Shown in pieces: positions 4,845 to 63,647 of a stretch of 64,000 nucleotides of DNA. Within the stretch, counting starts at the first letter, position 1. Every line of letters starts with the position of its first letter. The stretch comes from Methanosarcina acetivorans C2A (GTDB taxonomy: Archaea; Halobacteriota; Methanosarcinia; Methanosarcinales; Methanosarcinaceae): NCBI RefSeq assembly GCF_000007345.1, contig NC_003552.1, positions 496,001 through 560,000 on the forward strand. Reading direction: 5' to 3'. Under the pieces are notes generated by a model. That model saw only the letters and a program-made list of their open reading frames with translations, was not told the DNA's origin and searched no databases. The position numbers and the translations under genes are program-made.

Positions 4845-5327
4845 ATGAAGAGAATAGCAATCAATGGTAGTCATAGGAAGAATATGAACACTGCAATAAT
4901 CCTGGAACATGCACGTAAGGGAGCAGAATCCAAGGGTGCGGAAACAGAACTCATCCACTTTATGATCTAAACTACAAAAGGTTCATAAGCTGCTTTGCCT
5001 GCAAGAGAGTAGGCGGTCAAAGCTATGGCGTATGTGCCATGAAAGATGAACTGACCCCTGTCCTTAATAAAATAGAAGAAGTCGATACCTTTATTCTTGG
5101 AGCTTCTATCTACTTCGGGGATGTGACCGGAGAGATGAGGTCTTTTCTGGAACGATTATTGTTCCAGTACCTTGTTTGGAGTGAAATAACGGGTCACATG
5201 TGCACGATATACAACTGCAATATATGACCAAAACTCCCCAATTGCTGATACTCTCAGGAACGCATCCCAGCAAGCTGCCTCAGGAAAATTGATCCGCATA
5301 ATAGCATATTTTAAACATCATCAATAG
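4845..5327 (+). pseudogene. Broken flavodoxin-fold NAD(P)H reductase
   Basis: The gene starts KRIAINGSHRKNMNT, an FMN-loop N terminus. The first frame runs into a stop near 4968, and the continuation lies one frame over (LYDLNYKRFISCFACKR), so one base was gained or lost around 4955-4965. The second frame continues through VGGQSYGVCAMKDEL to a flavodoxin-type FILGASIYFGDVTGEM and ends near 5227; a third open stretch (YDQNSPIADTLRNASQ, to 5327) looks like its tail after a further frameshift. The protein would be a relative of the intact flavoprotein at 3078. It follows the hydrolase by about 30 bp and probably shared its transcript. At least two lesions make it non-functional. Confidence 0.75.
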
Positions 5328-5350
5328 CTATTTAACTAAGTATACATAAA

Positions 5351-5950
5351 ATGATAAATTATCTGGGAGTGATACAAATTAGGGAAAACATAAGCAGCTT
5401 AACTTTTTTTGTCCTGCTACTGATCACCGCAGTGGTCGGGATTTCGGGATGCCAGGAAAACGGGACAAACTCCGAAAGTACGGATACGTCGGGCGTCACT
5501 TTACAGGATTCCGTTTTGAATGATACGGAAATAAACTCTCTCATATACATGCGAGAGGAAGAGAAGTTAGCAAGAGACGTGTACCTCTACCTCTACGACA
5601 AATGGAATATACCCATCTTCAGAAACATCGCTGCGAGCGAACAGGAACATACAGATGCAGTGAAATCCTTACTGACGCAGTATGGCGTGCAGGATCCAGC
5701 CTCCACGACTTCTGAGGGAGAGTTCACCAATCCCGAGCTGCAGGAACTCTACAATCAGCTGATCCAGCAGGGAAGTGTCTCCAGGGAAGATGCTCTTAAA
5801 GTAGGTGTGATCATCGAGGAGAAAGACATTCGCGATCTAGAAGCAGATCTCGCTAATACCACGAACAGCGATATCAAGATTGTCTACGGCAACTTGCTGC
5901 GAGGCTCGAACAATCACCTTTCCGCCTTCAACACCCAGCTTGGAAAGTAA
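5351..5950 (+). CDS. DUF2202 ferritin-like lipoprotein
   Basis: An N-terminal hydrophobic segment ends in a lipobox (GISGC), so the mature protein should be a lipid-anchored exported protein. The rest is a DUF2202 domain, a four-helix ferritin-like bundle with the recognisable stretches MREEEKLARDVY and EQEHTDAV, whose Glu/His residues could bind metal. Function is unknown for the family. The first ATG (5351) has no ribosome site. A strong GGAGTGAT lies at about 5366-5374, 4 nt before an ATT codon at 5378 that would give a compact signal peptide (RENISSLTFF...); a GTG at 5369 is too close to that site. The true start may therefore be ATT at 5378. The gene sits between the broken flavoprotein and the first aldo/keto reductase. 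Confidence 0.85.
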   Translation: MINYLGVIQIRENISSLTFFVLLLITAVVGISGCQENGTNSESTDTSGVTLQDSVLNDTEINSLIYMREEEKLARDVYLYLYDKWNIPIFRNIAASEQEHTDAVKSLLTQYGVQDPASTTSEGEFTNPELQELYNQLIQQGSVSREDALKVGVIIEEKDIRDLEADLANTTNSDIKIVYGNLLRGSNNHLSAFNTQLGK

Positions 5951-13180: not shown

Positions 13181-14371
13181 ATGAAAACACTGGTCTTTAA
13201 TCCCTTTTCAGGGGCAGCTGGGGATATGATTCTGGCGTGCGCTCTCGATCTCGGAGCTGACAAGCAAGCGGTGAAGGAACTTGTTGAAGCTTCAGCGCCC
13301 GTATCCATGGATATAAGGGAAGTGGTGAAAGAGGGAATAAAAGCCCTGGATGTCCGCATAAAAGTGCCTGAAAATGAACATGTCCGGACGTATCCTGAAA
13401 TCGTAGACCTCGTAAAGGCTGCAAAACTACCTCTTCAGTTGGAAGCAAGTACTCTTAGTATCTTTTTGAAAATGGCCGAAGCCGAAGCTGCCGTCCACGG
13501 GCAGCCCGACCTTGAAATGCTCCATTTCCACGAAGTGGGACAGAGTGATGCCCTTGCCGATGTCATAGGTTCTTCTGCAGCCCTCCATTCGCTTAACTGT
13601 GATTCGGTTTACTGCACTCCCATCAACGTGGGCAGCGGAACAATAGAATGTGCCCATGGGACCCTTCCTGTGCCGGCTCCCGCAACTCTGGAGATTCTCA
13701 GAAAGGGGAAACTCTATTTCAGAGGAGGGAGCGTGAATAAGGAACTGCTGACCCCTACAGGGGCTGCTATCCTTTCACATTTTGCAAAGCCTGTTGAGAC
13801 TTTTCCCCAGGGGAAGGCAATAGCCATCGGATACGGGGCAGGAAATGCCGACCTTCCAGGGCCCAATGTGCTCCAGGGAGTGCTTCTTGAACCTGACTCC
13901 CACCTGATTTCGGATATAATTGAGGTGCTTGAGACCAATGCCGATGATGTAAGCGGGGAAGTTCTGGGCAACCTTTTTGAAGAACTGCTCTCGATGGGGG
14001 CAAGGGATGTTGCGATTATGCCCGCAACCATGAAAAAAGGAAGGCCTGCCCATATCATCAAAGTCATTGCAAAGCCCGAAGACAGTGCGAAACTCGCCAG
14101 GAAAATCATTGTTGAAACAGGGTCGCTTGGAGTCAGGGTTATGCCTGCACGCCACAGGCTCATGGCTGCCCGCAACATTGAAAGGATCAAAATAGAACTC
14201 GAAGGTCAGGAGTTTGAAACCGCAGTCAAGGTTGCCAGGGACTCGGAAGGGGTTCTGCTCAATATCTCTGCGGAGTTTGAGGACTGCAAAAAGATTGCAA
14301 AAGCCAGCGGTATTCCTGTTCGAGAGATCATGCGCAGGACAGAAGAAGTCGCAAGAAAACTCTTTTCCTGA
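13181..14371 (+). CDS. larC: Nickel insertion protein LarC
   Basis: LarC is the CTP-dependent nickel insertase of nickel-pincer nucleotide synthesis. The 396-residue protein starts with KTLVFNPFSGAAGDM, contains the metal-handling HFHEVGQSDALADVIG block, and has the DDVSGEVLGNLFEELLSMGARDV segment typical of its central domain. No programmed frameshift is needed, unlike some bacterial larC genes. The Shine-Dalgarno is GGGAGG. It is cotranscribed with larB and ends against the convergent asd gene across a shared hairpin terminator. Function is assigned by family; the Ni-pincer client in this organism is not visible here. Confidence 0.93.
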   Translation: MKTLVFNPFSGAAGDMILACALDLGADKQAVKELVEASAPVSMDIREVVKEGIKALDVRIKVPENEHVRTYPEIVDLVKAAKLPLQLEASTLSIFLKMAEAEAAVHGQPDLEMLHFHEVGQSDALADVIGSSAALHSLNCDSVYCTPINVGSGTIECAHGTLPVPAPATLEILRKGKLYFRGGSVNKELLTPTGAAILSHFAKPVETFPQGKAIAIGYGAGNADLPGPNVLQGVLLEPDSHLISDIIEVLETNADDVSGEVLGNLFEELLSMGARDVAIMPATMKKGRPAHIIKVIAKPEDSAKLARKIIVETGSLGVRVMPARHRLMAARNIERIKIELEGQEFETAVKVARDSEGVLLNISAEFEDCKKIAKASGIPVREIMRRTEEVARKLFS

Positions 14372-56769: not shown

Positions 56770-58437
56770 CAGACTGTCTCATAACCATTTTAAATTGTAC
56801 AATTGGGTAATACCCATTTCAATTTTTATTTCATTTCAACAATGAGAGATAATTTTCATGGATCAACATAGAGTATTTGTTATTCTCGCTCGAATTCCCC
56901 CTTTATTCCATCCTTTACTTCCTCCTCCAACTATCATTTTCAGCATACTTTTCAGGTTTTTCCCTTCTCTTTTTATAAAGTCTGCTATTTTCTTTATATT
57001 ATGTACAGTACACATCATAACAAATTCAATTCCTGTCTTCCTTTTTCCTCTCAATAGGAATTCTCTGAACCCTCTATCCTGTTTCATCTGACCAAACACA
57101 GGTTCTACGGTAGACATTCTTTTCTGATACTTTTCTGTCCCCTTCTCTGTGTTCAGTTTATCCCTCATATCCTCCATCAAATGTTCCCTAGGATCTCTTG
57201 TTATTGTCCTTTTTCCGCTCTTAGTACATGCATTTTTCAGCACACACTGAGAACAATAGCTACATACATAATACCTTAAATCAGGTTCACCTTTCCTCTT
57301 TTGTATTCTTGTAAAGGGGATTTCAAATGCAGCAGGACAATAATAGCAGTCTTTTTGTTCATCGTATGTAAAAAGAGACTTCCTGAACCTCCTGGTTTTT
57401 CCTTCTTTTTCAGCTTTATAGAAATTGTCAGGAATATAAGCATCAATTCCTTCTTCCTGTAAAAATTCCAGATTCTCATATGAGAAATAACCTGCATCTG
57501 CAAGTACTATTGTTGGTTTATATCCCAGTGTGTTTTTTACATTCTGTATCATTGGTTCTATTTGATGAAGGTCGTTTTCTTCGTTGACAACGTCTGCTGC
57601 AACGATTATTTGCTCTTTTTCATCAACAGCAACCTGACAATTGTAGGAAGGTTTCTTGCTTCCATCTTTATGCTTCATAATTCGAGCATCGTTATCTGTG
57701 ATGTTTATTTTTTTCAGCTTTTCTTCATCAAGCTTCTTCTTAGCAGCTTTTATTTTTTCCAGTCTTTTCTTCTTGTCAACAAGCTCTTCTGGAATCTGAT
57801 ATGGTGTTGAGTCACCATAAATTTCATCTTCATGTTTATCTGTCTCAATACTCTCTTTGAGTATCTTATCTATTTCTTTTTCGAGAGCATCCGAACTCTT
57901 GCTCTGTCTTGATGAAGCATTTGCCTTAACCTTTGTTCCGTCAATTGAGATACTGGAACCAATCATATCCATTTCTTTACAAAATGTGACAACCTGGGAA
58001 AAGATTTCTTTTATAGGGCCAAGATGAGTTGAACGGAATCGACAAATCGTATGAAAATCAGGTTTTTGCATGGCTGCCAGATACATAAATGCAGTATCAG
58101 TTTGAGTCATTTGTTGCAGTTTACGTGAACTTCTAATGCCTATAAGGTAACCATAAAGTAATATTTTTAAAAGAGGTCTTGGATGATAGGCTGGGCAGCC
58201 TTCCTTAGAGTAAGTGGATTCAATAGCAGTGATATCAACGACATCTACGATGTCGTTTAGTACTCTGGCGATATGGTTTTCAGGAACAAAATCTTCCAGG
58301 TCTAACGGAAGTAAAAACTGCTGCTTTTGATCGTACTTTCGGAACATGGGAAACACTGGAATTTGTTTTGTAAAAAAGATAAAGATTACGGGTTTCTGCC
58401 CCAAATGTATGATAGAGTATAGTTTTGAGACAACCTG
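56770..58437 (-). mobile_element. IS1182-family insertion sequence
   Basis: 1668 bp. Terminal inverted repeats are CAGACTGTCTCATAACCAT (left) and, reversed, CAGGTTGTCTCAAAACTAT (right), 15 of 19 identical. A 4-bp palindromic target TTAA is duplicated (56766-56769, 58438-58441). It carries one intact transposase gene on the minus strand. Removing it restores the reading frame of the host gene. Confidence 0.88.
56863..58347 (-). CDS. IS1182-family transposase
   Basis: 494 residues from the Met at 58347 (FRKYDQKQQFLLPLDLEDFV), the usual start of the family; a TTG-initiated extension to 58404 adds 19 residues without counterpart. The DDE core shows Asp in SIDGTKVKANAS, Asp in LADAGYFSYEN and Glu in VEPVFGQMKQDRGFREF; a Cys-rich zinc segment (YYCPAAF..., VCSYCSQCVLKNAC) lies between the last two. 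No frameshift or stop, so potentially active. It is transcribed toward the host gene's upstream neighbour. Typical length for the family is 450-520 residues. Confidence 0.92.
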   Translation of the reverse strand: MFRKYDQKQQFLLPLDLEDFVPENHIARVLNDIVDVVDITAIESTYSKEGCPAYHPRPLLKILLYGYLIGIRSSRKLQQMTQTDTAFMYLAAMQKPDFHTICRFRSTHLGPIKEIFSQVVTFCKEMDMIGSSISIDGTKVKANASSRQSKSSDALEKEIDKILKESIETDKHEDEIYGDSTPYQIPEELVDKKKRLEKIKAAKKKLDEEKLKKINITDNDARIMKHKDGSKKPSYNCQVAVDEKEQIIVAADVVNEENDLHQIEPMIQNVKNTLGYKPTIVLADAGYFSYENLEFLQEEGIDAYIPDNFYKAEKEGKTRRFRKSLFTYDEQKDCYYCPAAFEIPFTRIQKRKGEPDLRYYVCSYCSQCVLKNACTKSGKRTITRDPREHLMEDMRDKLNTEKGTEKYQKRMSTVEPVFGQMKQDRGFREFLLRGKRKTGIEFVMMCTVHNIKKIADFIKREGKNLKSMLKMIVGGGSKGWNKGGIRARITNTLC

Positions 58438-62233: not shown

Positions 62234-62740
62234 AAGCTCATTTTCCGGCTATGATGTGAAAATTGTTGTTTCCGATCCGATTTTCTTTCCGAAGAATACA
62301 GGAAAGATTTGAGGTTCTCGGAAACCTTACTGTTTTTGAGAATGTGCCCATTTCCATTGAATAATTTATTTCAGTTGAATACCTCCGTTGCTTGCAGAGA
62401 GGTGAGTTCGCACAACTTTGATTATCTATTATTCAACAAACTCTATTAAAAAAGTGAACTTCATTTCTAAATAGAGATTAAAACTATTCAGGATGATGTC
62501 CCAGAAGTCGCATAAACGGTAATCTGAAGGCTTTTTAGCCATATATGGGAACCATAGGACGTTGTTTAAGAATGTAAAAATTAATACAGCATTTTATGCA
62601 CACGCTGATCAACAGAATGTATGACTGATGATTTACAGGCAGACCTATAAAAAAAACGAACCGTGTATATTACTATCAGTAATACCACCGTCAGTATTTT
62701 ATACTTGAACTTACATATTATATATTGTTCACAAGGAACT
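62234..62740. other. Spacer with a TATA box before the hairpin array
   Basis: No gene. The main feature is ATATTATATATTG (62715-62727), a TATA box about 25 bp before the first repeat unit. Confidence 0.55.
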
Positions 62741-63155
62741 AAGCTGTAAAATGAAGAAAATTCAGGACAGAGTAATAATCTGATCCTGTAATAAACTTCA
62801 TTGACGCGTAAGCTGTAAAATGGAGCAAATTCAAGACGGCTTGAAAACCGATCTCGAAACCTACTTCATTGACGCATAAGCTATAAAATGAGGTAAATTC
62901 AGGACAGGCTGAAAGCAGGCTAAAAGCTGATTCCGTAATAAACTTCATTGACGCGTAGCTATAAGGTGGAGCAAATTCAGGACGGCTTGAAAACCGATCC
63001 CGTAATATACTTCATTTATGGCGTAAACTGCGAGATGAAGCAAATTCAGGACAGACTGAAAGCTGATCCCGTAATATACTTCATTGACGCGTAAGCTTAA
63101 AATGAAGCAAATTCAGGACAGAGTTCTGATCCTGCAATAAATTTCATTGTTGCAG
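62741..63155 (+). repeat. Tandem array of six structured 60-79-bp units, candidate ncRNA
   Basis: Units start at 62741, 62810, 62878, 62957, 63025 and 63093; lengths are 69, 68, 79, 68, 68 and about 63 bp. Each has a left arm (AATGAAG or a variant), ATTC, an inner arm (GGACAG, GGACGG or AGACGG), a loop of 4-19 nt, the complementary arm (CTGATCC, CCGATCC or CCGATCT with a conserved bulged A) and a right arm (CTTCATT). The linker is close to GACGCGTAAGCT. Changes in the arms are compensatory or turn A-U into G-U only when the plus strand is RNA. No protein frame explains it. Confidence 0.75.
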
Positions 63156-63647
63156 ACCAAACCTTGTGGACCTTTTATTCACTCTTTTAATCAACGCTAA
63201 AGTATACAGATATCTTTTTCTCGTCTTTTACTGCTTCTCTTATCTTTTCGTTCCGGGATATTTTCCTCAATACCCAGAATTTAATCGACTTTCCAGCTCG
63301 TCTACTCTGCTTTATTGTTCAGTCCCAACGTGACTGTGCACAAAATCACTTATTTTTTTTATAATAGCTTTCACCTGAGACAATCCAGCTGGCAGTGTCG
63401 TGAATTTGCTGTAAATCTTGAATCAAGTTTTTGTATACAATTGGAAATGTTGATCTTCTGATATGGAATTTATGACTCAATCAATTTTTGAAATTACAAT
63501 TTTTATCGGTACACTGCCGGTACTGCAGAGTTTGTGATTGAAAAGTTAAAACTGAATAAGTTGATATCGGGAGTTCGAATATGTCTCAAGCTTATCAAGG
63601 TCTGTGTTTCCATCCCTCCCCGACTCAGATGGATGAGCCCATATCTA
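63156..63647. other. AT-rich spacer
   Basis: No gene. T-rich runs (CCTTTTATTCACTCTTTT, 63171-63188) follow the hairpin array and could end its transcript. Nothing else is recognised. Confidence 0.5.

Follow-up and report, generated by a model that had tools for sequence, protein, structure and literature searches.

A plus-strand structured noncoding RNA gene, built of six tandem hairpins inside one closing stem (P1), very probably lies in the stretch of Methanosarcina acetivorans C2A DNA analysed here. This stretch, the window, has 64,000 nucleotides and covers 496001-560000 of the 5,751,492-base single-contig genome; all coordinates below are window positions (genome position minus 496000). 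Comparison of homologous loci, at the level of sequence, showed the boundaries and strand of the gene, P1, the unit fold, a variable unit number and a restriction to four genera. The fuller statement, that this is a free-standing RNA gene whose product acts in trans as a multi-site protein-binding scaffold or sponge, seems to us evenly balanced when taken as a whole. An earlier note on the window had proposed a plus-strand multi-hairpin structured RNA at this place, a proposal now well supported by strand asymmetry, homologues in four genera, promoter spacing and P1.

The gene and its features

The following features were assigned.

62670-62682, no strand: palindromic box TTACTATCAGTAA upstream of the promoter (upstream alignment, 61 loci)
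62687-62695, plus: box ACCGTCAGT adjoining the TATA-type box (upstream alignment of loci)
62697-62703, plus: TATA-type box TTTTATA, its spacing to P1 kept in 59 of 61 loci
62727-62736, plus: 5' arm of P1 (GTTCACAAGG), with the predicted transcription start at 62727; pairs with 63162-63171, with compensatory changes
62744-62806, plus: hairpin unit 1 (this and all following units by covariance model match and fold)
62813-62874, plus: hairpin unit 2, inner arm AGACGG/CCGATCT
62881-62953, plus: hairpin unit 3, enlarged loop
62959-63020, plus: hairpin unit 4, extended outer stem
63028-63089, plus: hairpin unit 5
63095-63152, plus: hairpin unit 6, 3' arm TTTCATT
63162-63171, plus: 3' arm of P1 (CCTTGTGGAC), complementary to 62727-62736
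63173-63188, plus: T-rich run, probable U-tract terminator (from the sequence; a T-rich stretch follows P1 at other loci too)

Six imperfect tandem units of ~68 nt were found at about 62741-63155, with similar linkers and a unit-to-unit spacing of 63-79 nt (period mostly about 67-68 nt). In each unit, an outer stem of 7 bp (AATGAAG type against CTTCATT type) is joined through an asymmetric internal loop to an inner stem, GGA-CRG / CYG-A-TCC, which contains a bulged A with an A-C mismatch beneath and is capped by a loop of about 8 nt; unit 3 has, besides its longer loop, CTGATTCC. Some non-helical nucleotides, e.g., CAAAUUCA and the bulged A, are kept across units. The two-part stem described in the earlier note is indeed present in the six units, and the inner-arm variants listed there (GGACAG/CTGATCC, GGACGG/CCGATCC and AGACGG/CCGATCT, with the kept bulged A) are all in the sequence. 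The outer-arm G-U variants were likewise seen on the plus strand, except that the 3' arm of unit 6 is TTTCATT instead of the CTTCATT that had been reported, which makes another G-U. A 69-aa minus-strand ORF over the array was rejected as coding, since the 63-79 nt unit spacings break any frame. About 4 kb upstream of the array, a 513-aa minus-strand ORF (56863-58404) looks transposase-like by eye.

All six units are enclosed by P1, a long-range stem that was missed when the element was first placed at 62741-63155; the units do lie there, and the element is longer. When the loci of 16 genomes were aligned, a common frame emerged, composed of a TATA-type box, about 22 nt, (T/G)GTTCACAAGG, n units, CCTTGTGAACC and a T-rich stretch, in which the two flanks of the array are mutually complementary and form P1. 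With the flanks of 61 loci each aligned on its own, P1 was paired in 626 of 634 cells (98.7%). Exchanges across loci include C-G/U-G/U-A and G-C/U-A, as in L123, where GGUUACAAGG pairs with CCUUGUAACC, as well as a compensated 1-bp indel that changes the length on both sides. The single-unit loci L014-L016 fold as a simple rod of about 105 nt, composed of P1, the outer stem and the inner stem, and one unit is therefore a complete module. These data also bear on the reading of the RNA as a precursor cut between units into single hairpins of ~48-68 nt, each acting alone. The regular spacing, the similar linkers and the existence of single-unit genes would suit such processing, but P1 closes the array in 61 loci, including single-unit ones, and a mere precursor needs no closing stem; we regard this reading as quite improbable.

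Support for the fold, register and strand

In the training alignment, 97.6% of stem cells pair, vs. 25-49% when the partners are slid by 1-3 columns. Outside the training set, 94.2% of stem cells pair in 60 distinct Methanolobus and Methanomethylovorans units, in an alignment that was fitted to the model, which favours this result; 8 of the 14 pairs are doubly changed in these units, and none of 500 shuffles matched the observed pairing percentage, doubly changed pairs or cells, or covariation score. The main varying inner pair, 25-36, is Watson-Crick in 88% of cases within the unit vs. 41% with the arm of the next unit, which places the pairing register within the unit. On the plus strand, the stem cells of 150 units hold 200 G-U and 22 A-C combinations, a ratio that the minus strand would invert, and the plus strand is thus taken to be the RNA.

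Covariation was further evaluated with a self-written tree-aware test, in which substitutions were re-dealt on a FastTree tree of 224 units. Pair 25-36 ranked first (E 0.31 among all column pairs, 0.003 among structure pairs), with the loop pair 27-34 next to it, and 25-36 was the only stem pair clearly supported. The other stem pairs, either too strongly conserved or altered on a single side, lack support in this test, which is itself rough because trees of 60-nt tandem units are poor. The covariation that the earlier note expected from more copies was thus strong for one inner pair and for P1, and weak elsewhere by the tree-aware measure; that this measure supports only 25-36, plus 27-34, counts against our best explanation. 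The full RNA folds with z-scores of -7.2 (plus) and -5.7 (minus) against dinucleotide shuffles. Its unconstrained minimum-energy fold reaches -132.7 kcal/mol, vs. -117.3 kcal/mol for P1 with local hairpins; since the arms all resemble one another, this fold combines arms from different units, which counts against our best explanation.

The distribution of changes within the units is also relevant to the possibility of a trans-acting antisense sRNA, in which the loops, the linker ACGCGUAAGCU or the 3' arm CUUCAUU would pair with mRNAs and the repeats would multiply the seed. The 3' arm CUUCAUU is nearly invariant, kept beyond pairing needs; outer-stem changes are almost all A-to-G on the 5' side, and pairing-compatible C-to-U changes on the 3' side are rare. 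The linkers are partly conserved as well, and sRNA154 and sRNA162 of Methanosarcina work by base pairing (PMC5867862, PMC3510493). By contrast, the terminal loops differ among units and most conserved nucleotides lie in stems or structured internal loops, so that antisense action appears rather unlikely to us.

Promoter, upstream boxes and terminator

In 59 of 61 loci, 26.5 nt separate the centre of the TATA-type box from the first G of P1 downstream; the distance is 27.5 nt in one of the remaining two, and the box was not recognised in the other. A distance of 26.5 nt is the usual archaeal TATA-to-start distance, and the RNA should therefore begin with P1. From this arrangement of sequence elements, we infer plus-strand transcription of the gene. 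The earlier note had placed a TATA box ~25 bp before unit 1, which did not hold: the conserved box of the window is at 62697-62703, about 40 nt before unit 1, and the AT-run near 62715-62725 is not it. By contrast, the T-rich run that the note had seen after unit 6 is there, behind the 3' arm of P1.

Upstream of the TATA-type box, a TTACTnnnAGTAA-type palindrome is kept in loci of the window type, and less strictly in other genera. The TATA-adjacent box reads ACCGNCAG or ATCGTTAG, the ATCGTTAG-like form being that of the second locus type. Even when three mismatches were allowed, the promoter pattern had a single occurrence in the genome. The palindrome TTACTATCAGTAA and the box ACCGTCAGT (62670-62695) may together form a candidate operator for a dedicated regulator.

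Distribution and unit number

Of 40 relatives covered by a DNA search, 16 carry the element, and these all belong to Methanosarcina. A covariance model built from 51 diverse units (R1) matched 27 of 31 Methanosarcina genomes, in a search of the kind that the earlier note had called for. Of 200 genomes of the class it matched 51, which all belong to Methanosarcinaceae and one of which was marginal and not confirmed on recheck; no match was found outside Methanosarcinaceae among these 200 genomes. A second model (R2), built from the units of the other genera, revealed homologous arrays in 54 of 112 Methanosarcinaceae genomes and in 4 of 14 genera (Methanosarcina and three others). An exact-pattern scan of 84,980 species returned Methanosarcina, Methanolobus, Methanomethylovorans, and Methanosarcinaceae or Euryarchaeota MAGs, together with two contigs of one 'Candidatus Cloacimonadota' MAG (L154 and L162; JAQVBK010000341.1 and JAQVBK010000191.1). 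These two contigs are probably mis-binned, as the RNA also occurs in a Methanosarcina MAG from that sample.

The sequence-only profile counted, in 61 loci, one unit (9 loci), two (7), three (26) or 4 to 10 (19); a looser profile gave 12 units in L007, some of them partial, and an overall range of 1 to about 12. Genomes have two or three loci. The M. acetivorans genome carries a second copy with four units (L092, 5381172-5381443, minus), which differs from the window locus in its promoter-proximal sequence and in its neighbours (ABC-2 transporter), and L107 (G022:C19) combines a three-unit copy (5286-5480) with a single-unit copy (13996-14058) about 8.5 kb apart. Array positions have kept their identity, since 192 of 224 units are closest to a unit of another locus and not to an array mate; block duplications within arrays were seen in L101 and L113. 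In the Methanolobus three-unit arrays L124, L127, L128, L129, L130, L149 and L150, conservation is good in the last unit, whereas the loops and inner stems of the first two have diverged, a pattern suggestive of different roles among units.

Genomic context

In Methanosarcina, the loci are of two syntenic types. One, with 1-4 units, follows an ABC-2 transporter gene pair and adjoins a RibD-like gene. The other, the window type, has mostly 5 or more units and often follows a PRC-barrel gene; the PRC-barrel protein was rejected as a partner, as it is found beside window-type loci only and not in other genera. An HsdR-like type I restriction gene is upstream in ten window-type loci, HsdS-type genes are downstream in six, and AlbA-2 and HsdM-like genes are downstream in several; in L101, L113, L116, L135, L137 and L145, the RNA sits between the HsdR-like gene and HsdS/AlbA-2/HsdM-like genes. 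No HsdR- or HsdS-type gene was found beside the window locus or the remaining loci, and the restriction genes were for this reason judged to be passenger synteny. In other genera, the neighbours are unrelated (a peptidase, a PEP-utilising enzyme, a beta-lactamase-fold protein, an ABC transporter, DUF5714). As neighbours differ between genera, the gene serves no fixed neighbour and is free-standing, and its action is most probably in trans.

Synteny is also part of the answer to a purely DNA-level reading, namely a mobile satellite, an iteron or a protein-binding repeat without RNA function. In line with it would be the dyad symmetry of the tandem repeats, the presence of two or three loci in a genome and the transposase-like ORF lying about 4 kb before the array. 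The G-U signature is nevertheless strand-asymmetric, the promoter-to-P1 spacing is fixed, P1 shows compensation, the loci are syntenic across species and not dispersed, and plasmid, phage and viral collections gave no match to the RNA; such a reading is very unlikely. A transposon satellite or MITE was rejected on the same ground, since each genome has few loci and these occupy syntenic positions in many species; no transposon satellite was found, a match to which the earlier note had named as speaking against an RNA.

Comparison with known RNAs

At the curated gathering cut-off, the only Rfam 15 match in the window and 8 homologous loci was a tRNA distant from the element, and permissive searches gave chance-level matches only, in agreement with the earlier remark that no described family has such a layout. 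A literature search, mostly without subscription papers, likewise returned no description of the tandem-hairpin RNA, although the M. mazei catalogue (Jager 2009) may list its transcripts without a name.

The CsrB/RsmZ sponge RNAs of bacteria have several hairpin copies, and their copy number can differ between relatives. The methanogen RNA resembles them as a free-standing RNA with several copies of one hairpin, and differs from them in being archaeal, in having the whole array held by a closing stem, and in carrying GGA in the inner stem, paired with UCC, and not in the loop. Moreover, its hosts are without CsrA: PF02599 was absent in 30 relatives, whereas control genomes gave matches, and this absence counts against our best explanation. 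A Y RNA was rejected, as Ro60/TROVE (PF05731) is absent in 112 family genomes, and neither CsrA nor Ro60 was retained as a partner protein, both being absent from the genomes searched. C/D box sRNAs and k-turn RNAs, of which boxes RUGAUGA and CUGA and tandem G-A pairs would be expected, were rejected; the CUGA-like segment is a stem arm, since it varies to CCGA together with its stem partner. CRISPR/TIGR arrays share the tandem layout, the period here being about 68 nt, and were rejected because whole units are conserved and homology, among units as well as among species, extends to every linker and unit, with no variable spacers; the loci also have no conserved Cas or Tas neighbour.

Among archaeal sRNAs, nine conserved cold-induced intergenic sRNAs of Methanolobus psychrophilus are reported to share an upstream 'cold box' (PMC5378194). 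They resemble the tandem-hairpin RNA as conserved intergenic sRNAs of Methanolobus, a genus that carries it, and as having a motif upstream of the promoter, and the boxes at 62670-62695 are possibly comparable to the cold box; no tandem-hairpin layout is described for them in the main text (PMC5378194), though one of them may prove to be this RNA. The sRNA154 and sRNA162 are also regulatory intergenic RNAs of Methanosarcina, but, compared by description, they have one or few stem-loops or domains and no tandem repeats (PMC5867862, PMC3510493). We rate the tandem-hairpin RNA as a probable new RNA family of the multi-hairpin regulatory kind.

Proposed mode of action and significance

From a mechanistic point of view, the TATA promoter would start transcription at the first G of P1, and a plus-strand RNA of roughly 445 nt, ended by the U-tract, would fold into a P1-closed multiloop with six near-identical hairpins. 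Each hairpin may be one autonomous site for one copy of the same RNA-binding protein; a protein site is favoured because conserved non-helical nucleotides (CAAAUUCA, the bulged A) fit it. The repeated binding platform suggested in the earlier note is thus plausible and agrees with the mechanism that we favour. The RNA would then be a trans-acting, multi-site scaffold or sponge with a capacity proportional to the number of its units, and the conserved boxes that precede the TATA box would presumably control its expression. A scaffold or sponge is favoured by the autonomous module, the variable number, the closed ends and the dedicated promoter, and the module is regarded as autonomous because single-unit genes of about 105 nt exist and unit number varies. 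By contrast, the diverged first two Methanolobus units argue against a pure sponge of identical sites, which needs no divergence.

To our knowledge, a defined structure is available for few archaeal noncoding RNAs beyond the housekeeping classes, and hardly any archaeal sponge or scaffold RNA has been described. The family may, and we put this forward tentatively as the less probable outcome, represent a new archaeal ribonucleoprotein class, without parallel in other lineages, in which a hairpin, multiplied 1 to about 12 times inside one closing stem, gathers a protein specific to this lineage. The ends of the RNA are predicted precisely, its covariance model works, and variants of 1 to about 12 modules occur naturally. 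As the RNA is present in Methanosarcina species with genetic tools, its study could reveal an RNA-protein system and the effect of module number on capacity.
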